Shown here: positions 4,354 to 21,901 of the stretch, one piece after another
Layout: the number at the start of each line of letters is the position of its first letter
Position numbering within the stretch: the stretch's first letter is position 1
From: Hyperoplus lanceolatus
Taxonomy: Eukaryota; Chordata; Actinopteri; Uranoscopiformes; Ammodytidae
NCBI GenBank assembly: GCA_026929865.2
Contig: CM049397.1
Location: 1-64,000, forward strand
Length of the DNA: 64,000 bases
Reading direction: 5' to 3'
The notes under the pieces: generated by a model
Told to the model about the DNA's origin: nothing
Database searches by the model: none
What the model saw: the letters and a program-made list of their open reading frames with translations, nothing else
Translations under genes and position numbers: made by a program

Positions 4354-5639
4354 GTCTTCATGGCCAGACATTCAAAGTTCAAGGTCAGTTAACATCTCAT
4401 TACAAGAGCACACAGTGAAACAAAACATATTTTTGTTACATAAAACCCATAATAAGTATTTGAATAAGAGGTCAAGAATATCAAATAGCTTGAGCTCAAG
4501 TGAATATCTCATCAGCTCTGGTCATAAAAGTAGAAAACAATTTTTGTCGCATGTTATGTGAAAACTATTTTTCAATCTTCTTATTTTAAAACTCTTAGCA
4601 AAAAGTGAATGCACATCTTTCCCAACATGTTGAAATGTTACTTTAAAGTAGGTCCGAGGAACTTACAGTTTGTGTTAATTAAAGTGGCCACTTTGGACAG
4701 AAGCGATAGTGATTTAACGACACCAGCTGCTGGTCATTGGTGAGCGTACATGGACAAAGGCATTGAAAAAAACTATAGAAAAATAGCGTTCTTTGCACCG
4801 ATGGTCTCGTTTGATGTTAATAAAACAGTGAAATAAAAGCTGTGAATAAAAGACCAGAGGGAGTGAAAAATAAATACAAACAATTCAAACAGTACAGCAG
4901 GCTCTGAATGGTCAGTGATATAAAAAATAAAAATGAAAAATTATTTGTTCTAACTCGTTAGTGTATGTCTGTGTGAGAAGATACATGTATTTCAATGAAC
5001 ATTTAAAAATAATCTGATCAACGGTTTACATGGTGGTGAATCCTAAAGATGAAGCTTCATTCATAAAGTTCACAAAATAAAAAAAAGGTATACTTTATTT
5101 CTTCTACCACGTCTTTTTATTATCTAAATAAATAGCAGGCATTTATTTAACCAAGCTCATTTATTTTGGAAGGCCACGGTGGTGGTCCGTATTTCGGTGT
5201 ATTCCAATTATCGAGGAATCACACTTCTCCTGGAAAGGAGGCTCTGGCTCTCGATTATGGAAGCCCAGATTCAGGAGAAACAATGCAGTTTTCATCCTGA
5301 ACATTGGAACAGCTTTTCACCCATTGCAGATGATAGAGGCATGGGAGCATGCTGAAAGTGGTGTGCATAGCTACCTTTAACCTCTCGCATCAGCTCTGAG
5401 TTTGCTTTTATTTTATTTAGAGGTGCACCAATTGACCGGACAACAGATTGATCTGCGCCGATTGGCCTATTTTGACATGGTGCTCGGCTGATCTTCTCTG
5501 CCAAGCTGTAAGGGACACGGCTATACATTAAAAAAAAAACTTTGTCTAAAGCGAAGTTAAGTTACTGCTAATGCAAACCGAGCCTTTCCTGATCTACACC
5601 TTCATGATGCTCATTTAAATGTATGTTTTTTGAGAAGCT
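4354..5639. other. No gene; diverged repeat fragments
   Basis: Around 4636-4830 there is a degraded, reverse-oriented relative of the element at 35786-36726: it shares TTTAAAGT..GAGGAAC and a GATGGTCTCGTTTG phrase. At about 5420-5460 GAGGTGCACCAATTGACCGG resembles a common hAT terminal repeat, without a partner. The rest is AT-rich with no recognisable gene. Confidence 0.4.
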
Positions 5640-7698
5640 GTTGATAAAGTAGTCCCATGTAAAGAAATTAGAATAAAACAGAGGACAGAACCCTGGGTAA
5701 ATGATGACATCCTTGAGGCAATTAGAGTAAGAAATAGCAAGTATGGTCAATTCAAGTTAAACAAGGATGAGCAAAGTTGGACTGATAATAAAAAGGTGAG
5801 AAATGAAGTTAACAGATTAGGGGTTTATACTAAAAAGGCATTTTTTAATGAGAAAATAGCTGAATATAGAAATGACTCAGGAAAGCTATGGAAATCCCTC
5901 AAGCAGCTTAGCTACAGTAAAAAGATGAAAACCAAAAACACTAATATCACTCTAAATCTTGGCAATAATATTACATCAAAGAAGGAGAAAGTAGCAGATG
6001 GCTTTAATTAACATTTGTTAACATTTTCATCTGTTGCCAGCAAGCTGGTGGATAAGCTACCTGGCCAATATGGTGAAAGCCATGTGCGAGACTATTACTC
6101 TCAGTTAGGGATTCAGACGGGTGGCTTCCTCTTTCAAAAGGTGTCTGAGGCACATGTTCTTGAGAAGCTCCAAAGGCTTGATTGCTCTAAAACCACAGGA
6201 TTAGACTCTATTCCATCACGCTTCCTAAGGGATGCTGCTGAGATCATCACCCCATGCATCACTCATATTGTAAACAGTTCTATAGAACAAGGGCATTTTC
6301 CCAATTATCTCAAGATTTCCAGAGTGATTCCTCTTTAAGAAAGGGAGTAAACTGGACCCTGGCAACTAAAGACCTGTCTCTATTCTGAGTAGTCTGTCAA
6401 AGATCAGCGAAAAGATAATTTTTGAACAAATTGACAAGTACGTATCTTCGTTAGACCTACAGAAGGCCTTGTTGTATAAATTGAAAGCCATGGGTTTTAG
6501 TGACTTAGGACTGAAATGGGTGGGCTCCTATCTGGAGAATAGAACGCAGGTGGTGGACATTGGGGGCACATTGTCTCAACCACAAAGCATGGTCTGTGGG
6601 GTTCCTCAAGGGAGTGTTTTGGGGCCACTTTTCTTTCTTTTATATATAAATGAGCTAAAGTCTGTTTGTTCTTGTGATCTTTTTTATATGCAGATGACTG
6701 CGCTTTTAGTTTCTCACAAAGATAAAAATATTGTTGAAAGAACACTTTCTGCAGAACTTGAAAATGTTAGCAAGTGGATGTCTGACAACAAGTTATCACT
6801 TCACATGGGGAAAACTGAGTCCATATTGTTTGGATCAAAAATTAAACTGAAAAAAGCCTTGGATTTTAAGGTTTTAGCTGGAGATTCTGAAATGACATCC
6901 AAGGAATCAGTCAGTTACCATGGCTGTGTTTTAGATTGCCACTTATCTGGTGTAGGTCAGACTCAAAAGGCATTTCAATGTTTCTGGATCAAAGAGCAAT
7001 GTTAATTTTAGCAGGAGCTTTAATTCAGCCTTATTATGATTATGCGTGTGGCTCATGGTACAATGGTGTCACAATGCATTTGAAACATAGGCTTCAGACC
7101 TAGAAAAATAAGTTGGTTAGGCTTATTTTTAACGTCCCCATGAAAACTCATCTTGAATCTTCCCACTTTGAGAGGTTGGGTTGGTTGAAAGTAGATGATA
7201 GTATATCTCAGATACAGCTGTGTATGGTATATAGGAACACACATTACATTCTAAACGGGGATGTTCCCAAATATCTCAGAAATTATTTTAATCGATTAAG
7301 TTCACAGGCATTCCACTAGGGGTAGCTCTACAGATTTTGTACCCCCCAGAGTTAGGACTAACATGGGAAAGGATTCTTTTTTTTATGCTGGAACTACACT
7401 TTGGAATAGGTTACCTGGTACACTGAAGTTAGTCAGAAACTTAGGCAGTTTTAAAAAGGCCCTGAAACAATGGCTTAGACGCCAATATTAGGCTTGTCTT
7501 AATGGAGATCATTGTTATGTTTGATGTGTGATTTGCTGCTACTTGCCCTCTTCTCCTGCCCAATAGGGACCACAATGGAAATAAGCCTTCGGGCTTTTTT
7601 GTGTTATAATTTTTGTGTCTAATTATGTATTTTAATGTATGATACAGTTCATATTTTATATAAAATGTTCAAATAAAATCAATCAAAATCAATCAATC
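5640..7698 (+). mobile_element. 5'-truncated LINE, L2/CR1 group
   Basis: Three plus-strand blocks are reverse transcriptase and its N-terminal linker: 5670-6011 (PWVNDDILEAIRVRNSKYG), 6015-6338 (SKTTGLDSIPSRFLRDAA..., ending ISRVIPL) and 6469-7005 (GVPQGSVLGPLFFLLYIN, then SKWMSDNKLSLHMGKTES). The endonuclease part is missing. The segment between about 6460 and 6470 jumps from the finger region to the palm, so part of the core, including the first catalytic aspartate, is deleted. The YADD codons at 6687-6698 are out of frame with the block around them, and stops separate the first two blocks. The 3' tail is AATAAAATC followed by AATC repeats. An old, dead copy of the same general kind as 50161-54157. 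Confidence 0.8.
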
Positions 7699-10161: not shown

Positions 10162-10179
10162 TGGCGCCCAGGCCGCGGG
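10162..10179 (+). promoter_or_regulatory. Primer binding site, lysine tRNA type
   Basis: TGGCGCCCAGGCCGCGGG directly follows the LTR end. The first eight bases equal the foamy-virus primer site for tRNA-Lys1,2 (TGGCGCCCAACGTGGGG is the family form); the 3' half is less similar. Confidence 0.75.
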
Positions 10180-10969: not shown

Positions 10970-12235
10970 ATGGAGGCGGATACTGAGTATGGTTCCGTCC
11001 AAGGAGGAGAAGCAGAGGAGTATACAGGGGAGAGAGGGCCTACTGCCCCCCGAGAGGAGGGGGTTGAGGGGCTGAAGGGAAAAGGAGAGAAAGGGTCCGC
11101 GGAGGATCTCGATTTCAGGCAATTGGAGGAAGGACGGAGGTTTGATCCGGCCGAACACCCTCGGGCATATGTGTTTAGTAGAACTATGGGAGGTAATTCG
11201 GGGGATGGTTTAGATGGGGCGGGTAACCTAGTACCCAGATCAATGGACATCCGAGAAACGATTAAGAATAAAAGGGGGAGATTAACCATCACTCAAGTAC
11301 CCCTAGTGGAGTTGGTGGAACAGGGTGACTGTATGTTAGTAAATCCTGCCAATGCGAGATTGTCTCATGACGGAGGAGTGGCTAAAGCATTAGTACTGAT
11401 AACTGGTGATATTATGCAAAAGGAAAGTATAATGTTAAGTAATGATTATCAGGGGGCCTTTCCCAGAGACATGGTGGTGATTACGGAAAAAAGTGTGAAT
11501 GAGAACGTAACGTGTGTATTACACGTAGTGTTACATCCAGTAGCTAGGACAGAGGGAGAAGACCTGGTGAAGGTGTTGAGAATGGCATATGAGAAAATAA
11601 TGCACGTAGCTCTTACACAGGTAAACCAAGGTAAACCGAATAACGTCATAATGACGCCGTTTGGGTGTGGAATTTATAGATATAGTTCTCCAGATTCACT
11701 GAAAGCCTTTATGTTGGCCTGGAATAGTTTAGGTGCTGCGCTAAACATAACTATGTGCGTAAATGAGATAAACAGATATAATGAGTGGGGAGAGGCATTA
11801 AAGAATTTCAGTTCTACTTTAATAAATGAATTATTCCAAGATGTGTCGTTCGCTCTACGAGGGGAAAGGGGAGAGGAAGTAGAAGGGGAGTTAGCTGAAA
11901 TCTGGGGCGTGTACGGTGGACCAGTTGAACCGAGTTATAGAGGTCAGGGGCCCACTGGGGGTGAAATTATAACACTAGGGAGCATTAGGTTTTCGGTAGA
12001 AGTAAAGGCACCAGATCAGGTAGACATGACTTATGGAATAGGCCCACTGCTGGTACTTCATGAGAAGGATTTAACAGAGTCTCCAGATTATGATGCAGAA
12101 GTGAGAAGGATGTTGGGTCAGGCACATAGCAGACGCGCGAGGGCTGAAGCCATGATAGGGATGTTTGCTATTAGCGGACAAAGACTACAGGGGTGGCGTG
12201 TAGGAAGAGTGGTAGAGGTAAATCCAGCGATGTAG
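10970..12235 (+). CDS. Macro-domain protein of the foamy-like retrovirus
   Basis: About 422 residues from the ATG at 10970 (an in-frame GTG lies at 10937). The first 100 residues are acidic and Gly-rich. Residues about 105-275 read as a macro domain: LVNPANARLSHDGGVAKAL matches the VNAANS-LLGGGGV-hydrophobic ADP-ribose loop, GAFPRDMVVITE corresponds to the G-x-x-x-T-P strand, and VIMTPFGCGIYRYSSPDSL to the P-x-x-x-x-G-I-Y/F-G loop. In the known family this fold binds or removes ADP-ribose; some RNA viruses (coronaviruses, alphaviruses, hepatitis E virus) use it against host PARP defences. A domain of about 120 residues with unknown role follows. It lies where gag would begin and slightly overlaps the next block. 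Function in this virus is inference. It could be an accessory gene or an N-terminal extension of Gag. Confidence 0.75.
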   Translation: MEADTEYGSVQGGEAEEYTGERGPTAPREEGVEGLKGKGEKGSAEDLDFRQLEEGRRFDPAEHPRAYVFSRTMGGNSGDGLDGAGNLVPRSMDIRETIKNKRGRLTITQVPLVELVEQGDCMLVNPANARLSHDGGVAKALVLITGDIMQKESIMLSNDYQGAFPRDMVVITEKSVNENVTCVLHVVLHPVARTEGEDLVKVLRMAYEKIMHVALTQVNQGKPNNVIMTPFGCGIYRYSSPDSLKAFMLAWNSLGAALNITMCVNEINRYNEWGEALKNFSSTLINELFQDVSFALRGERGEEVEGELAEIWGVYGGPVEPSYRGQGPTGGEIITLGSIRFSVEVKAPDQVDMTYGIGPLLVLHEKDLTESPDYDAEVRRMLGQAHSRRARAEAMIGMFAISGQRLQGWRVGRVVEVNPAM

Positions 12236-14246
12236 CAAAACAATGGTATGACACCTGCGCTCATGTTGCGATAACAGAAAGGGATTATTCCCGTAACGAG
12301 CAGCCTACTATAGAAGAAATTAGTAGACCACTGGAAACAGCGATTAGGACTGTAATTACATGGGCTGAACAAGCGTCTTCCCGGATACTAACAGTAAGAA
12401 TGCGCACTCAGGGAAGAACCTATAAAGGTATTCATGTAAGACGGCTGTTAGAGGCAGTAGCACAAGCAGTTCCCTTTCAAGATTGTGCGCCTATAATCAG
12501 GCTTTTGGTGGATACTCCCGATTTAAAACAGTATCTTAATGAAAAACTAATAGAAAACTATGAGAAAATCCAAATAGTTGGAGTAAGAGGAGAGGGCAAA
12601 GAAGAGAAGGAGATAGTAAAGCCAGATGGCTACTTGGAGGGGGGAGGAAGTAGACGACCGGGGACACCATATCCTAGTCCAGCGAGGGGGGTGGATAACC
12701 GGTTGGGGCCAATTGACATCAGAACTTCAACACCTAGTGGTACATCAAAGCATGGAATGTCCAGACCATTAGTGTCCTTTGCCCCTGATCTGGCGCCGAT
12801 AGCGAGGGGGAGGCATGGGGGAGCAGGGCCGTATGTCAGAAAACAATATAATCCCCACCGTTTGCCAGCGCTGCCTCCGGTGTGGATGACAACGGATGGG
12901 TTCACGTATAATCCACAAACAGACTTTGTTCAGCACGTTAGTGGGAAACAGTGGGAAAATGTAGACGGAGAGGAGTTAATATTAGACTGGTACCCGATCA
13001 CACACGAAGAATCTAGGTATACAGCAGGTGCGCTGTCTGCAAACACAGTGTTTATGCAAAAGAAAATCCCTCATACATGGAAAGAAGCATATTTAGTGTC
13101 TGGATATGATTATTACAGAGAGGGTAGCATCAGGAGAGATATGGCAACTCAGGCTTATGCACAAGCTATAAGACCTCCGTCAATAAACAGAGAAGTAGTC
13201 CGGTGTGCGCCGGTGTATGAAGAAGAACCAAGAAGGCCTATTAGCCCAATACATATAAATGAGTCGCGTTTTCCAACGTATGCTGATCAATACATGAATA
13301 GAGGAATGATGGGGAGCATACGAGAAGAGGATGAGGAGGAGGTTAATGATTCAAAATATCCAACCTTAGCGTTTCCAATAGCAGACAAATCAAGGGGTCA
13401 TGCTGATTGTATGCAGGATAAAACCTCAGTGAGGGCCTCTTCAATTATAGATGACAGAAGATACAGGACAGATGTGACAATGAGTCCAAAGGATTTTAAA
13501 TATCAGATTCCGGAAAGGAATACCGACGAGACAGACGTTCAGTTTATCTCTAGGTGTAAGGAAACAGGAGTCAGTCAGCAGATTTTATCAAATCCCGCAG
13601 TGGTAGGATTTTTTAATATCAGCAGAAATGTAGGTTGCCAAAAGGATTAACTCCTTGGGATGTTTTGGCGTTGACCAGGCTGACTCCTGGAATGAGTAGA
13701 ATCGACGAGAAAGTAACTAATTTAATAAAGGCTATTAAGAACAGGCGCACAACGTTAACATTAGCAACGGTGGAGATGGACCATATAACAGATGATGCCA
13801 TACATATGGAAAGAATATTAAAAGAAATACAGGGGGGGTATGAGTTAGCATTGAGATGGCGGGGTTACTCATATTCAAGGAAAATGGAGGAAGTGGCAGT
13901 TTATGACGCAAAACAAAAATTGTTCACTGAACAGAAAAAGACACAGGTATTGGAGAAACCTGGGGCGAAAGATGCGCCGTCAAAAAACGACAAAGCGGCG
14001 GTGGAGCCGGGGAACAAGTTCACAAAGCAGTCAAAACAGACTTTTGGTGCACAGTCAAAGAACACAAACTCCGGAGGTTATGCACCACAGGGGTCTCAAG
14101 TACAGAATACAACACAGTCAAATCCCCGGCCATGGGCAAAAACCGAGGTGTGGGGAAAAATGACAAATGTAGAAAAAGAGGAGTTGAGGAAGAAACAGGA
14201 AGAGTGGGATATGAAGTACAAGAAACCAAAAATAGACCAGCCTTAG
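12193..14246 (+). CDS. gag: Gag-like region of the foamy-like retrovirus
   Basis: Two overlapping open blocks cover this stretch. The first contains a basic, Pro/Gly-rich middle (RPGTPYPSPARG, ARGRHGGAGPYVRK) and a C-terminal part with no familiar motif; the second is rich in Lys and Gln and ends in a basic tail overlapping pol. No CCHC zinc knuckle is seen, which fits foamy Gag, where basic Gly/Arg boxes replace it. Assignment rests on position between the LTR/first ORF and pol and on composition, not on recognised capsid motifs. As a fossil it may carry one or two breaks. Confidence 0.5.
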
Positions 14247-17200
14247 AATTATTGGATAAATACACGTGGGAGGAGGATTACAATTTTTATGCCGATTTCA
14301 AAGACACAATTTACAGGGTAGACACGGGAGCAGAAATTACAATAAATGCTCAAGGAAGTAATACAGGGGAGGAGAGAGTAGTAGAATTAGCAGATGGAAC
14401 AATAAAGTCATTACCAGAAATTAATAATAAAGGTTTAGTAGGAGTGAAGGGCCTGGATAATTTAATTTCTGTAAAAGACTTGTTGTTATGTAAAAAGTTA
14501 TCATATCTAAAAGAAATGGATGTGAATGCTCAAATAGAAGATCAAATAAAACATAGTGATCTACCAGATAAGAATGAACTCAGGAAAGTTTTGCTTATGG
14601 GAAATTATGCTAAATTCAAAAATGATGTAGGAAAAGTTGAAGAATTTACCCATACAATAAGAGGAGGGATGCCACCAAAGCAGGCCCCTTATCCAATCAA
14701 ACGGGAATTGAGAGAAGAAGTAGGCACTATCATAAGAGAGTTAGAAGAATTGGGGATAATTAGAGAAATAGAAAATCCGCCAACAAATCTACCCATTATG
14801 GCTGTACCAAAGCCTGATGGCACATGCAGAATTGTGCATAATTTAATAGAATTGAATACAAGATTGTGTACTGATGCAAGGCAATTGATAAACCCTTCGC
14901 GTACTATGAGGGTGTTGCCCCAAAAATTGTATAAAACCTGCATAGATCTCAGTAATGGTTTTTGGTCAATCCCGATTTGTAATCAATCTCAATATAAAAC
15001 TGCATTTCAATATCAAAGAATAGCCTATGTTTGGTGTAGGTTGCCTCAGGGTTACAAGAACAGTCCTAATGTGTTCCAAACAGCAGTTATGAAAACATTG
15101 GAGGGGTTGGATGTCACCATTTACATAGATGACATTTTTATGACGCATGATGGAGCCGAGGAGCACCTGACATGTTTACAAGAGGTTTTGTTGCGATTAA
15201 AGAGGGCTGGATTCAAAGTAGGGCTTAAAAAATGTGAAACTGGGCGTTATGAATTACAATATCTAGGGTTCAAGATATCCCTGGCAGGAAAAGAACTGAC
15301 TGATGCTTATAAACGAAAGGTAGCAGAGTTCAAAACACCCAGTTCTGTGAAAGCTCTAGAACAATTCCTTGGAATATGTGAGTATATATCCAATCATGTG
15401 CCGCGTATGAGTGAACTAGCGTCACCCCTTCATAAATTAAAAGGTAAACTTAGACGAAAAGGAGCACCAAAGGATTTTTTGCTAAGTGAGCTAGAAACAG
15501 AGCAGTATGAAAACATGAAAGCTTACATCATGATAGAAGCTGTTCAGCTGGAAAGAAGGGAAGAAAAGCTCCCTCTAGAGGCTCATTTGACTATAGGAGA
15601 GAAAGGGGGGGGGGGGTGTATTGAGGTGCGAAATGCCAGATCTAAAAGACCCACTCTGTTTCTTTCTAACACTTGGTCAAGTTCAGAGCAAAAATATTCC
15701 ATCGAAGAAAAGTATTTGTGTTTGGCTTATAGGTTCTGGCCGGTGTTAAAAGATGTTGCGGGAAGTCAAGATTTGGTGTATTTTACTCCCGTAAATAGTA
15801 TAAAGGAGGCGACGAAGCAGACAACTGCAGGCGCCAAAGCTATGCTTTCTCGGTGGGGGAAATGGGAATTAATGATAATAGATCCTCAGGTAAGATTTGA
15901 ACTTGAGGGACATATCTTAAAAATAGTTAAACCAGACTCAAAACTACATACGAAACCAAAGGTCACTTTGTTTACGGATGGTAGTTTACATGGAGGAGAT
16001 GAACAAGCTGTATGGGCTTTTATATTGAAAAATGAAGATGGAAATGTGATTGCGCAACGCACAGGAAGGTGTAAAGGCAGTGCACAAACCGCAGAAGTAA
16101 CTGCAGTACATGAAGGTCTGATATGTTGTAGAGACAAAGGAATATTTGCAATCAGAATAGTGACAGACAGTGTATACAGCTACAAGGCCGGGACACAGGA
16201 ATTGGAATATTGGAAATTAAGGGAATATACCAATGTCAAAGGTGAACCACTGGTCCACGAGCAGTTATGGAGTATGATAGCAGAATTGACAGGGAGGATA
16301 ACAATTGAATGGTTTCATGTTAAAAGTCATACAAAAACAGAGGATTTTGACCATGCTGGAAACCGCGAGGTAGATAAATTAGCCCAAAATAGGTTTAGAG
16401 TGGCGAAATTGAGCGTCGTTTTCCCTCCTGAGTGGAGAACCAAAGATAAACATGTAAAGGTGCCAATAAACCAGGCGTATGAGGTGGTGCGGGAAATACA
16501 TGAAAACCTGGGGCACGTAGGTTTGAAACGGATAAAACTGTTTTTGAAAGAACATTTAATCCACATTCCTACACTCAATGCACATACAACATTAATCAGA
16601 TCGAGATGTCAACAGTGTGCTTTGGTGGGAGGATATAAAAGAAACATGCCTAAGCCATTACAAATTGTATGTAAAGAGCCAGGGATGCACTTCAGTGCAG
16701 ATGTTGCTGGGCCCTTTTCAAGTAGGACCAAGTTAGGAAATAAATATTTCTTGATTATTGCAGATAACGGGTCCTCCTATAAGCATGTATATCCATTGAG
16801 GGCTGCTACGGGCCGAATTATAGCGGTGAGACTAGGGGATCACCTATGTCATTTTCCTACCACTAGGTCGATAAGGATGGATAATGGGACACATTTCAAA
16901 AATAAGTGGGTGGGGGCGGTACTAACAGATAGTTCAGTACAAGAAATCTGGTCGGTTCCATACGCTTCATACACAAATGGAATAGCAGAAAGGGCGGTGA
17001 GGACGGCAAAAGACTGGATCATTAAAAATGCTCCAGTAACTTGGGATGAACCTGTCCAGTTAACTAGACTAAATATATATTTAAAACAACCCAAGCTAAT
17101 CCGGTTATTAAGCAGGTTATTACAAAAGCAGGACCTTTTATGCCGGGAGATTTAGTTTGGGTAGGGAGAAGGTCAGTGAATTTAGGAGAGGGAAAGTGGA

Positions 17201-17319: not shown

Positions 17320-18105
17320 ATGGCTTCTGCGTATCCACTTAGCCTGCGGACACCTGTTGACATTTGCGATTTGTTCATACATAATTCACAGGCTACTTGG
17401 GTATTAAACTGTTGTGGATCCAAGGGGGCGACCATTTGGCTGGGGAGTAATACAAAGAATTTGTCTCTGGCATTAAAAGGAGTTATTCCAGAAAACTGGG
17501 AACGTGTATTGAGGCAGGTATGGAGGAAATATGTATTAGGTTCATGTGCTGCATGCTCTGCACGCGTGACAGACAGTGTGTGGCGGGGACCTGCTGCACA
17601 CAGACCTGTGATGTTTTGCATAGCGTCAAGTGGCTGCAGTTATGCTGAGAGCCCGAGAGAGGGCTTACCCTCATGTAGGCTGATATTCTGTAACAACTGT
17701 TTTAATTTGTATGCATTACGCATGATAATTGGACGTTATGATCATCCGGTAGATTTTAACGGAAAATGTCAATGTTCGTCCACTCCGGAGGGGGTGTTAC
17801 CTTGTGAAAATGCGACAAGAATTGGGCTGAGTTCAGGGTTAGAATTACTGAAAGGGGACGGTACTATCCATCCTTCTGATTCTGAAAGATTGGGTTATCA
17901 TAGGGGTGTTAACAGAAAATTGGGAATGTATACTTCTACTTTGGATCTAGGTCCTAATCTGTCACCTCTTCAAAAAATGATAAAAACCCAGTTTCCTATT
18001 CTAAGCCCTGATAGACCTAGTCTGTTCACTGGCAGTAAAACAGTGTCAACTGTGACACTGTATCCAGATATCAGACGGTTAACAATAAGTTGTTTCCTAA
18101 AATGA
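17320..18105 (+). CDS. Cys-rich accessory ORF A between pol and env
   Basis: 261 residues, not recognised. It has many cysteines in pairs: CCGSKG, CAAC, SGC, CNNC and CQC, spaced as in a zinc-binding protein, and a Trp-rich stretch early on (WVLNCCG, IWLGS, ENWERVLRQVWRKY). No signal peptide or membrane segment. It starts right after pol and overlaps the next ORF by a few bases, so both are probably expressed from one spliced transcript. Foamy viruses carry their transactivator Tas and Bet after env; a zinc-binding regulator in a different place is one possibility, but there is no sequence match I can show. Confidence 0.6.
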   Translation: MASAYPLSLRTPVDICDLFIHNSQATWVLNCCGSKGATIWLGSNTKNLSLALKGVIPENWERVLRQVWRKYVLGSCAACSARVTDSVWRGPAAHRPVMFCIASSGCSYAESPREGLPSCRLIFCNNCFNLYALRMIIGRYDHPVDFNGKCQCSSTPEGVLPCENATRIGLSSGLELLKGDGTIHPSDSERLGYHRGVNRKLGMYTSTLDLGPNLSPLQKMIKTQFPILSPDRPSLFTGSKTVSTVTLYPDIRRLTISCFLK

Positions 18106-18494
18106 AAAGGAGCAAATCTTATGAAATAGAATTTCAAATGATTCTTTTACAACTATTAGAGGGTGTGTTTAGTAAGCATGGTGGAGCTGCTGTAGGCAGG
18201 AGACCTCGGCATGAGGAAATCGATTGGGTAACTTTACTGTCTAGAAAGCAGGAGAAAGATATTACATATTGGGCTACGGAGGTTGCATTACCATGTTCGC
18301 TACCTCAGAGCGATGGGTCTGCCCCCACTCTGTTGTTACATATACAGATGGTGTTAACCAAAGAATCACAAGGCCGTGTGAAGACGGCAAGGGTAGTCGT
18401 GTCTCAAACAGCGCTAGAGCATAAAGAAAAACCACAAAGTAAGTATGCTAAACTATTAAAGCTGTTCAAGAGAAAGAACACTCTAACGGAATAA
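18090..18494 (+). CDS. Small accessory ORF B between pol and env
   Basis: 134 residues, not recognised. Begins with a basic stretch (MFPKMKRSKSYEIEF) and ends with a Lys-rich one (KYAKLLKLFKRKN), with a hydrophobic, beta-like middle (LLLHIQMVL). It overlaps ORF A by 16 bases. A basic-ended small protein could be nuclear or RNA-binding; that is only an inference. Confidence 0.5.
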   Translation: MFPKMKRSKSYEIEFQMILLQLLEGVFSKHGGAAVGRRPRHEEIDWVTLLSRKQEKDITYWATEVALPCSLPQSDGSAPTLLLHIQMVLTKESQGRVKTARVVVSQTALEHKEKPQSKYAKLLKLFKRKNTLTE

Positions 18495-18639: not shown

Positions 18640-20515
18640 TTGAATCATGCTTTCTTACTCTGTTCTATGTACATAATATTCATGATAACTGCTTTACTTG
18701 GGATAATTATAGGATATGCCCAAATTACTACATATTCAGTTAGAACCTGGGATGTGAAGGAAATTAAAGTGGAGGAAAGACTAGGATCTGTTATTCAAGA
18801 TGAATACAGTATACAACTATTGCCATGTACCAGTGAGACATCTCCATGTGAATATCAAACTCAATGTAAAGAACGGAATGTAACTACATACCGTGAATTA
18901 TTAGTAAAGGAAATGTTAAATAGGAACGTTAACCTTAGTGGACTGAATATGGATGCTTACATTATGACGGGAGTTATGAATAAGTTGTGGAGTTCGAAAA
19001 CACAACCCTTTCAAATCTTAAATTCAAGAATTCCATCTCTTTTAAATGAAACTGATTGTAAATCATCTTGGTTTCATGTTAATCGCAATAGACTTGAGGT
19101 TGACTCGTATGACAAAGAGATAATGAGCGTGTCAACGTTTGTTAATGACTCACACATTCTAACAAAAATGTCATGGTTTTTGAAAGCTATGCGGACATTT
19201 AAATGTGTGACTATCACTGCTAATTGGACAAACATAAAAAATGGATATATCACTAGGCGATCAGAAAGACAATTAGAAATTGTGCATGGTTTACTGTAAA
19301 TAATAAGACATTAATTAGATACACAGATCCTTTGAAGTCAGAGCGGATGTCAGAGCCTTTGGGTTTATCTGAAAATTGGAACCATACGAAACCTATTATT
19401 AGTTACACCACTGTAGCTGTGCCAGCGACAAATAAAATTCATGTGTTGTATTTATGGCAGAATATATTTCCTGAAGAACAATCTGAGGACAGTAAGGAAA
19501 ATTATGAATTAAAAAATAATACAGCAACTGAGGAAAGAATGGAGGAAGAAGGGGTGACTGACACCGTGTATCAATTACCTTTGCGTCCTGTAAGAAGACG
19601 AAGGCATCCGCAATCGGAATTCAAGAAATACTTTGAGGTGCTTTTTGGACAACAAAGTATTAGATTAAAAAACAAAAGATATTTTCAGTGGGGCTTACAA
19701 GTCCTTTCAACTGATTATAGACTAGTTGGTTATCCGAAAGGAATTAATTGGCTGAGGAATGTTACATTTCCTGAGGAGGTTCTATATTATATGTTAGTAC
19801 CAAATTTTGAACATATCGAAAATAAGCGATGGCTGGAAGAAAATGGAACTCTGGTTATGAGTAATTTCTTACAATGTGTTAACAAGACATTGTATGAGGC
19901 TCTTCCGGTAGTGATTAAATCTGTATTAGAAACGGGTATGTATCCAAAAAACCAAAAAGAAATAACTAACAAGTTTGTTAGACCATATTGTCGGCTTAAA
20001 CTCCAGCTGGTCCAAAACGCTGCTGCACGTATCATCACCAAAACCCCTGCCATCTGTCACATCACCCCCATCCTGCACCAACTTCACTGGCTCCCTATCA
20101 AACACCGTATCGAATATAAGATCCTCCTCAATACATTCAATGCCATACATAACCTCGCCCCCCCATATCTGTCTGACCTCATCCAAATCAATACTCCCAC
20201 CCGGTCACTTAGATCCGCCTCCTCCATCAACCTACTCGTCCCCCCAGCTCGTCTGTCCACCATGGGGGCTCGAGCTTTCAGCCACTCCGCCCCACGCCTC
20301 TGGAACAGCCTTCCCCCGGACATCAGAAATATGGACTCACCTCTCACCTTCAAATCCCACCTCAAAACACACTTATTTAGGCAGGCATACTCACCCATGG
20401 ACTGAAAATCTGCTGCAAGCTCTGTGCTTTTTAAACTTGTTTTAATTGTGTTTTTGCCTTTGTTATGCATGTTAGGCGACCTTGAGTGCCTCGAAAGGCG
20501 CCATATAAAATAAAT

Positions 20516-20552
<37 letters not shown>

Positions 20553-21901
20553 GGGGCTGCCTGCGAATGACCAATATCATATGTTTAATTACACCAATTG
20601 TGGAATTAATCATTTAAAATATCTGTGGCGTGAAACAATGACCATTACTCCTGGAGTAGACAGATATGTGGGGATTGGCTTGTTACCATCAGAGATTTAG
20701 ATTTTAGAGCCATGTTTTTTAAGCTATACGTTTAAGGGATCATTCATATCTTTTGGAAACATTCCTGAAGCAGCAATGGTTTTCTTTACACGCAGCACAT
20801 TATTATGAATATATTGGAACAAAACAATCAACTCCCAGAGCGGTCTCGGTGGAAATCCGGGGATGCAAAAATTGTATAGCTCCACCGTCAATATTGACCA
20901 AGGTGGTATATGAAAAGGGTAAGAAACATATTGAATATACATTAGATCTTCGTGAAACGATGACACATTCTAATCCTGAGGGCAAATATCCATCTGTAAA
21001 ATATGGTTATTATGGTAAAGAATTTTGTTCTGAAAAAGATAATTATGAATTTTGTTATGAAAAGGACTCTTTTTCAGAGTCCACCATGCATCAAGCCAGG
21101 ATGGTGAATAGAACATTTTTTTGGTCACAAAGATATAGAATGCATGATGGGATATTGATTGGGAAGAGTTTTGAAAAATTGATAGACATGTATTTTTCAA
21201 ACTCCCCGTCCAGACATGTGACGACCAATAAAATAATGTTGAATTCACACACCTTCTGGGGACATGTAGAAAGAGAAGTAAAAAATGTTTCCCAACATCC
21301 CATTCCCAAATTTCAAAAGATTTTTGAACAACGCTTTGGAAAATGGCTGAATGTTACATGAGAAACGTTTGAGGACGAAAAAATAAAAAATGGTTTTCCA
21401 GGGGCTCGGCCTGAATTTCAACAAGTTTCACTTTCGGAGTTACGAATAGCTAGGACTAGCTGGGTGAATGAAATAGTGTGTCATGTTGGAACGAAATATG
21501 CTTTTAGTGCCCAATCTGCATTTTATGGACGAAATGTGTTTCCAGACAAGTGGCTAATAAAAGGATTAGACGTCAGAGTCCCATGGAGTAATCCATTCCC
21601 TTCTGTTGATTTTAAACATTATAATATGTTAAGGTTCTGGCCAAAGAACCTTTCATCTGAAGTAGATTTTCAAGCTATTACAGACTGCAAACAAGGGTTT
21701 GTCCCAGGCTATGAGGAGAGTGGCTTAGATGGCTTTGGGGTAAGGGACCAGGGAACTTTTTCATTAAACAACATTATGAGAAAAGCCTCTGAAGGAGTTG
21801 TAAAAGGGATACAACACCTTGGTGCCGGGGCTGTGGGAGTAGTGGTAGATTTACTTTACCAAAGTTTTGGGTTTGTGATTTTAAATATTTTAATCGTTTG
21901 A
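18640..21901 (+). pseudogene. env: Env of the foamy-like retrovirus, split by an L2 insertion
   Basis: The N-terminus carries a hydrophobic segment (YIIFMITALLGIIIGYAQI) like the long membrane-spanning leader of foamy Env. Many N-glycosylation sites (NVT, NVS, NET, NDS, NWT) and paired cysteines follow. RPVRRRR near 19585-19610 is a furin-type cleavage site separating surface and transmembrane parts, with a hydrophobic stretch after it. The last part ends in a membrane anchor (AVGVVVDLLYQSFGFVILNILIV). An L2 LINE with an ATT tail occupies 19985-20551. Apart from that insertion I judge there to be about two or three breaks. A decayed fossil gene. Confidence 0.75.
19985..20551 (+). mobile_element. 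L2-type LINE 3' fragment inserted in env
   Basis: Encodes the C-terminal end of an L2 reverse transcriptase: LVQNAAARIITKT, then LHWLPIKHRIEYKILL, APPYLSDLI, and LWNSLPPDIR...FKSHLKTHLF. A short 3' UTR (TTGAGTGCC..GCGCCATATAAAATAAA) and an (ATT)n tail at 20516-20550 end it. Same orientation as env. More GC-rich than the surrounding retrovirus. It is 5'-truncated with no clear target duplication, as usual for L2. Confidence 0.9.

Follow-up and report, generated by a model that had tools for sequence, protein, structure and literature searches.

The window analyzed here is a 64,000-nucleotide stretch of the Hyperoplus lanceolatus genome (CM049397.1, positions 1–64,000). It makes up the opening 64 kb of contig C3 in an 807-Mb genome. 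A preliminary description of the window placed a macro domain in an ORF upstream of gag in a foamy-like endogenous retrovirus. This raises the question of whether the domain is genuine, which viral protein it belongs to, and what it might do there. Features of the provirus are listed in Table 1.

Table 1. Features of the provirus in the window (positions are those of the window).
Feature	Position	Strand	Basis
Decayed primer-binding-site-like sequence, presumed tRNA-Lys type	10162..10179	+	Motif common to C1, L013, L014, and L015
Macro-bearing ORF, N-terminal part of gag	10970..12235	+	Pfam; alignment to C1 frame
Macro domain as folded (predicted), 176 aa	11267..11794	+	AlphaFold2, Foldseek; Pfam core 11339-11704
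Second piece of broken gag frame	12193..13650	+	43% to residues 471-967 of C1 Gag (P0012)
Third piece of broken gag frame, C-terminal part	13635..14246	+	45% to residues 971-1197 of C1 Gag (P0012)
pol: reverse transcriptase, RNase H, integrase	14132..17155	+	PDB matches
pol–env accessory gene, split over two frames (17320-18105 and 18090-18494)	17320..18494	+	Match to C354 frame
env remains (18640-19299, 19332 to about 20000, 20753-21361, 21464-21901)	18640..21901	+	Match to C354

The macro-bearing ORF begins with an ATG at 10970, ends with its stop codon at 12235, and is 421 amino acids in length; the reading frame is open from 10901 on. Pfam Macro (PF01661) matches residues 124–245 over profile positions 1–116 of 118; the score, 44.1 bits (E 2.3e-11), is above the gathering score of 22. 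Macro is the sole Pfam family for this ORF at E up to 10. NCBIfam returns ADP-ribose-binding and O-acetyl-ADP-ribose deacetylase models, every one under its cut-off, and the top PDB sequence match is the coronavirus nsp3 macro domain (E 1.1e-4). The window ORF holds a true macro domain. The profile search bears out the preliminary description on this point, and the three loops named there (GAFPRDMVVI and TPFGCGIYRY among them) are all present in the translation.

Among the 6977 candidates from a protein database search with the full ORF, none reached E 0.01, and none of the 54 candidates for the macro piece alone reached E 1e-3. A four-row alignment used as the query retrieved 3496 proteins, the best 120 of which were used onward. 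All 120 entered a tree, and 72 of them formed alignment A2. One fish macro protein with reverse transcriptase and RNase H Pfam matches (P0028) was excluded as a likely gene-model fusion, judging from its sequence.

The AlphaFold2 model made from the macro domain as a single sequence had a pLDDT of 35.7 and was discarded. With a 73-row alignment, the pLDDT is 86.4 and the pTM 0.84. The best 50 rows of a Foldseek comparison against the PDB consist of 48 macro or X domains and two designed serine hydrolases. The leading row is the coronavirus nsp3 Mac1 (X domain), with a TM of 0.75 and 22% identity over the structural alignment. The window domain is thus predicted to have a macro fold, although the model is not independent evidence because its input alignment consists of macro proteins.

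Coronavirus nsp3 Mac1 is the best match both by PDB sequence and by Foldseek, but it sits in an RNA-virus replicase polyprotein, unlike the window domain, which lies in Gag as described below. The best-known viral macro domains, those of coronaviruses, alphaviruses, and hepatitis E virus, are found in replicase proteins. A stretch of the same fold is present in the annotated Gag of a cane toad (Rhinella marina) endogenous retrovirus (BFVD A0A2U9K508, 873 aa; TMq 0.73, E 4.4e-8, rank 45).

A genome-wide search with the macro ORF gave nine matches. These are the window itself, a copy on C354, two matches in one C1 frame, two genes on C23, and three short pieces (C10, C11, and C3:35.5M). The C1 copy has a single frame open over 1198 codons. 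Its 1197-aa translation (P0012) aligns with the macro ORF over residues 28–469 (40%) and carries Pfam Macro at residues 145–267 (54 bits, E 2e-14). Since this single frame aligns in turn with the three window ORFs, the latter are one gag split into three frames. By these frames, the macro domain is an N-terminal part of Gag and not a separate gene. The C354 copy ends at the contig end with the macro domain only partly present, and its layout agrees with a domain inside Gag as far as the partial copy reaches. A Pfam search of P0012 at E up to 0.1 finds no zinc knuckle; to our knowledge, foamy viruses have a Gag without one.

The preliminary description had instead proposed a separate first ORF. 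An accessory gene in front of gag would suit the window sequence, where the ORF stops at 12235 and the next ORF lies in another frame. The unbroken C1 frame across all three window ORFs argues against this, and so does the 881-codon frame of C354, which stays open from midway through the macro domain up to the end of Gag. Such a gene is accorded hardly any likelihood.

Pol of the window is nearest to foamy-type chains among the best 60 of 239 PDB matches. The top matches score 273.5 bits (7ksf), 271.2 bits (Peptidase A9 entry 7kse), and 231.3 bits (Pr125Pol), which we take to be foamy virus PR-RT-RNase H entries. The next kinds, with organism names that are in part likewise presumed, are Ty3-type chains (107.9 and 106.5 bits) and an MLV/XMRV-type chain (92.5 bits). 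The foamy-like character claimed for the element therefore stands, as an assignment by PDB match scores. Pol is foamy-type, so it is not of the gamma/epsilon type that marks the epsilon-like macro-bearing fish retroviruses. Six peptide patterns used to compare the window Pol with IMG/VR gave no matches.

The primer-site-like sequence, which we take to be of tRNA-Lys type, lies 808 nucleotides before the window ATG and 754 nucleotides before the ATG in C1. The versions in C1 and L013–L015 are nearer to the motif than that of the window, and the L015 version is TGGCGCCCAACGTGGGGC. The stretch before the primer site has no second copy within the 64-kb window. The provirus is truncated or diverged on its 3’ side, with no detectable 3’ LTR. 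Both accessory gene pieces match one 390-aa frame of C354 (74% and 63%), and the gene is acc3-like by position only. The four env ORFs all match the long env frame of C354; env is interrupted by a foreign insert of approximately 560 bases at about 20000–20563. By eye, the translation of this insert resembles the final part of a reverse transcriptase from a non-LTR retrotransposon, and open frames at 5634–7005, upstream of the provirus, also resemble such a reverse transcriptase. PDB sequence searches with the second gag piece and two env pieces gave nothing below E 0.7, and Rfam and tRNA scans of the 64-kb window found none.

Large FLERVs of ray-finned fish carry acc3 between pol and env, and the gag of AciFLERV is annotated by position (PMC5512871, accessible text). 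AciFLERV and AliFLERV, as described in the same text, resemble the window element in their foamy-like Pol, tRNA-Lys-type primer site, extra gene between pol and env, and large size. The window layout fits these large FLERVs. The likeness is one of description, and a macro domain is not mentioned in the accessible text of that paper.

The preliminary description knew of no retrovirus with a macro domain. This is contradicted by the cane toad Gag, by a second element in this genome (on C15), and by fish epsilon-like elements, which occasionally have CNPase or macro ORFs (PMC4977317, citing Basta 2009; accessible text). The last are like the window element in having a macro domain in a fish retrovirus, and unlike it in not being foamy-like. 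A macro domain near the N-terminus of a foamy-type fish retrovirus Gag was found neither among the matches listed in searches of the open-licence literature nor in the accessible text of PMC4977317, PMC5512871, PMC12642411, PMC8672886, PMC10699275, PMC6001957, and PMC10499221. Measured against this literature, a macro domain in a retrovirus is already known, and what appears new is its place in the N-terminal Gag of a foamy-type fish retrovirus.

Searching the whole genome for the Macro family, with 41 candidates scored, yielded 25 matches, the window and C1 among them. The match at C15:1184079-1184378 is inside a 1518-codon frame that also carries a reverse transcriptase match. The order in this Pol (L032:6022-7701; C15, 1183521-1185200) is retroviral protease, Macro (1.2e-6), and the start of a reverse transcriptase nearest to MLV-type chains. 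Upstream in the same frame, with one stop between, is a gag-position ORF with a zinc knuckle. This gamma/epsilon-type element fits the epsilon-like description; its macro domain sits in Pol between protease and reverse transcriptase, unlike that of the window. The domain matches human OARD1 (E 2.5e-49), while BLASTP finds no similarity between it and the window macro domain, and it is therefore a separate gain of another macro class. After it, HxT and HVT motifs mark a stretch that on visual inspection resembles 2H/CNPase enzymes.

A search with Pol across the genome gave at least 52 matches (969 candidates, 45 scored), many of which are distant retroelements at 27–34%. The upstream side was examined at 20 of the Pol-match places. 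Beyond the window, the macro domain is present in two foamy-like copies, in full in C1 and in C354 by the part before the contig end. Seven loci (L023–L029) contain eight ORFs with the first 127 residues of C1 Gag (96.9–97.6% identical) and no macro match. Their Pol pieces reach 60–65% identity at best. The remainder up to mid-pol appears to be deleted in these repeated copies, as in a non-autonomous derivative, and by their sequence the loci look like deletion derivatives. The three short pieces belong to the same element family (88–92% DNA identity to L009) and contain the first part of the macro domain, with a stop. Direct repeats, probably LTR ends, are identical in L013 (1-218 and 7266-7483, 218 nucleotides) and 99.0% identical in L015 (1-305 and 6564-6868, 305 nucleotides), pointing to insertions of these derivatives in the recent past.

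A more distant foamy-like group has seven loci with Pol at 33–46%. Pfam Macro was not found in four ORFs from three of the seven (L016, L018, and L020). Most other foamy-like copies in this genome are without a detectable macro domain. The suggestion that the family keeps the domain thus holds in part: C1 and the partial C354 copy support it, while the seven deletion-derivative loci and the distant group, with no significant match, do not.

One weak candidate is present in the distant group. The 915-aa Gag-position ORF P0134 (L018:1270-4014; C2, about 39.66 Mb) has a macro-like stretch at residues 460–589. Of 1013 ORFs, this one was weakly matched by profile A2 (E 0.0024) and was not matched by profile A1. 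Both profiles missed the OARD1-like domain of L032, so a miss by them means little. The hhalign probability of P0134 is 8.4, low in itself, against at most 2.4 over 40 shuffles; the same test gives 10.2 for the true C354 half-domain and 2.5 for the true OARD1-like domain. Cut out alone, the stretch reaches 28.2, and no other copy covers it. Either a degenerate macro domain or chance could account for it.

Pol identity is 66% between the window and C1 and 81% between the window and C354. Window and C1 are 51% identical in the macro domain, 48–51% in other Gag blocks, and 24% in the N-tail. The pN/pS values for this pair are 0.44 for the macro domain, 0.72 for the N-tail, and 0.26 for Pol. Between the window and C354, dN is 0.29 and dS 1.42 over 196 codons, 54 of which are inside the macro domain; synonymous sites are at or near saturation in most other pairs. 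On these measures, the Gag copies show purifying constraint.

Residues N125, N128, L131, H133, G136, H185, V187, and G234 (window protein numbering) are identical in the window and C1. These include the Asn-x-x-Asn of loop 1 and the following His (N125, N128, and H133), presumably the residues of MacroD/Mac1-type ADP-ribosyl hydrolases. The GDIT Asp, which we take to be the adenine contact and which 68 of the 72 comparison proteins have, is replaced by E in the window and by G in C1. The Gly-Gly-Gly loop position reads D-G-G in the window and G-S-G in C1. Both have L-H instead of G-P after HxV, and T-P-F-G in place of P-x-I-S in loop 2. The ADP-ribose contacts proposed earlier are thus borne out in part: the domain has the Asn-x-x-Asn, the His, and some of the Gly loop, but lacks the GDIT Asp. 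Because GDIT, GP, and loop 2 are changed, the viral domain has a signature of its own, and its ligand or chemistry may differ.

The reading we favor, at roughly an even chance, is that the Gag-fused macro domain of this ray-finned-fish foamy-like retrovirus blunts PARP defense, most likely by binding, and perhaps removing, ADP-ribose. As we infer its packaging, ligand, enzyme activity, and target, each particle would contain numerous copies of a Gag-borne domain, and these would be carried into the cell by the core. The domain would bind, and perhaps remove, ADP-ribose put by host PARPs on the capsid or on antiviral factors, and PARP-based defense would thereby be blunted during entry or assembly. 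Since it would be a Gag part with many copies per particle, action on or near the capsid is the natural reading. Counted in favor are the Pfam matches in the window and C1, the fold, the continuous C1 and C354 frames, the constraint, and the kept Asn125, Asn128, His133, Gly136, and Gly234. Counted against are the lost GDIT Asp, the L-H after HxV, the T-P-F-G loop 2, the macro-less ORFs in the seven derivative loci and the distant foamy-like group, and the search of a single host genome. The countering of host ADP-ribosylation by the domain is plausible.

Some viral macro domains bind RNA, and the main alternative is a fold repurposed for assembly. The domain would then bind viral RNA, a nucleotide, or Gag subunits in a matrix- or packaging-like role, with no part in ADP-ribosylation. 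Its position in Gag fits this, as do the GDIT Asp loss and altered loop 2 common to the window and C1, but the catalytic-loop Asn, His, and Gly are kept across proteins that are about half diverged. We consider this alternative possible but doubtful. A slimmer chance is given to a functionless fossil domain, its pocket inactive and its constraint that of Gag at large. The missing GDIT Asp, the changed loop 2, and the broken window gag would be expected of a fossil; against it, the domain is conserved to the level of the other Gag blocks and above the N-tail.

If, as in the favored reading, the domain binds or removes ADP-ribose, fish retroviruses would long have been under pressure from PARP-based defense, directed at the particle itself. 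One macro domain lies in a structural polyprotein, the Gag of a foamy-type retrovirus, in copies whose Pol is only 66% identical, and a second, unrelated one in another retrovirus of the same genome makes the idea of PARP pressure testable by comparison. A wider proposal, offered tentatively and on balance unlikely, is that the macro domain at the Gag N-terminus is old in foamy-like retroviruses of ray-finned fish, is packaged in their virions, and acts against host ADP-ribosylation at core entry or assembly. Residues 460–589 of P0134 would be a degenerate remnant of it, and the separate OARD1-like domain would indicate that fish retroviruses have been selected repeatedly for domains of this kind.

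In a tree of 124 macro domains, with a midpoint root and a bootstrap that had not settled, the two viral domains group together (100/100), and a very long branch separates their clade from the fish group. This long branch is hard to place, and the source of the domain cannot be placed. The viral domains differ from PARP9/PARP14 macro domain 1 in forming a clade separate from fish macro genes and in their changed GDIT, GP, and SSG motifs. It is very unlikely that this lineage alone recently acquired a PARP14-like macro domain from its host. Among 122 non-viral proteins, the window domain scores highest with a C23 host macro gene (40.6 bits), but the C1 domain does so with a different protein (46.7 bits). 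The separate viral clade, subject to the unsettled bootstrap and long branch, and the sharing of the domain by lineages with 66% identical Pol also argue against such a capture.

The two C23 genes are neighbors at 6.85 and 6.92 Mb (L011 and L012). They have strong Macro matches, with KH_PARP14 below its cut-off, and by these matches look like host PARP14-like macro genes. Two macro genes of this genome group with Sparus aurata proteins in the tree (support 93/73).
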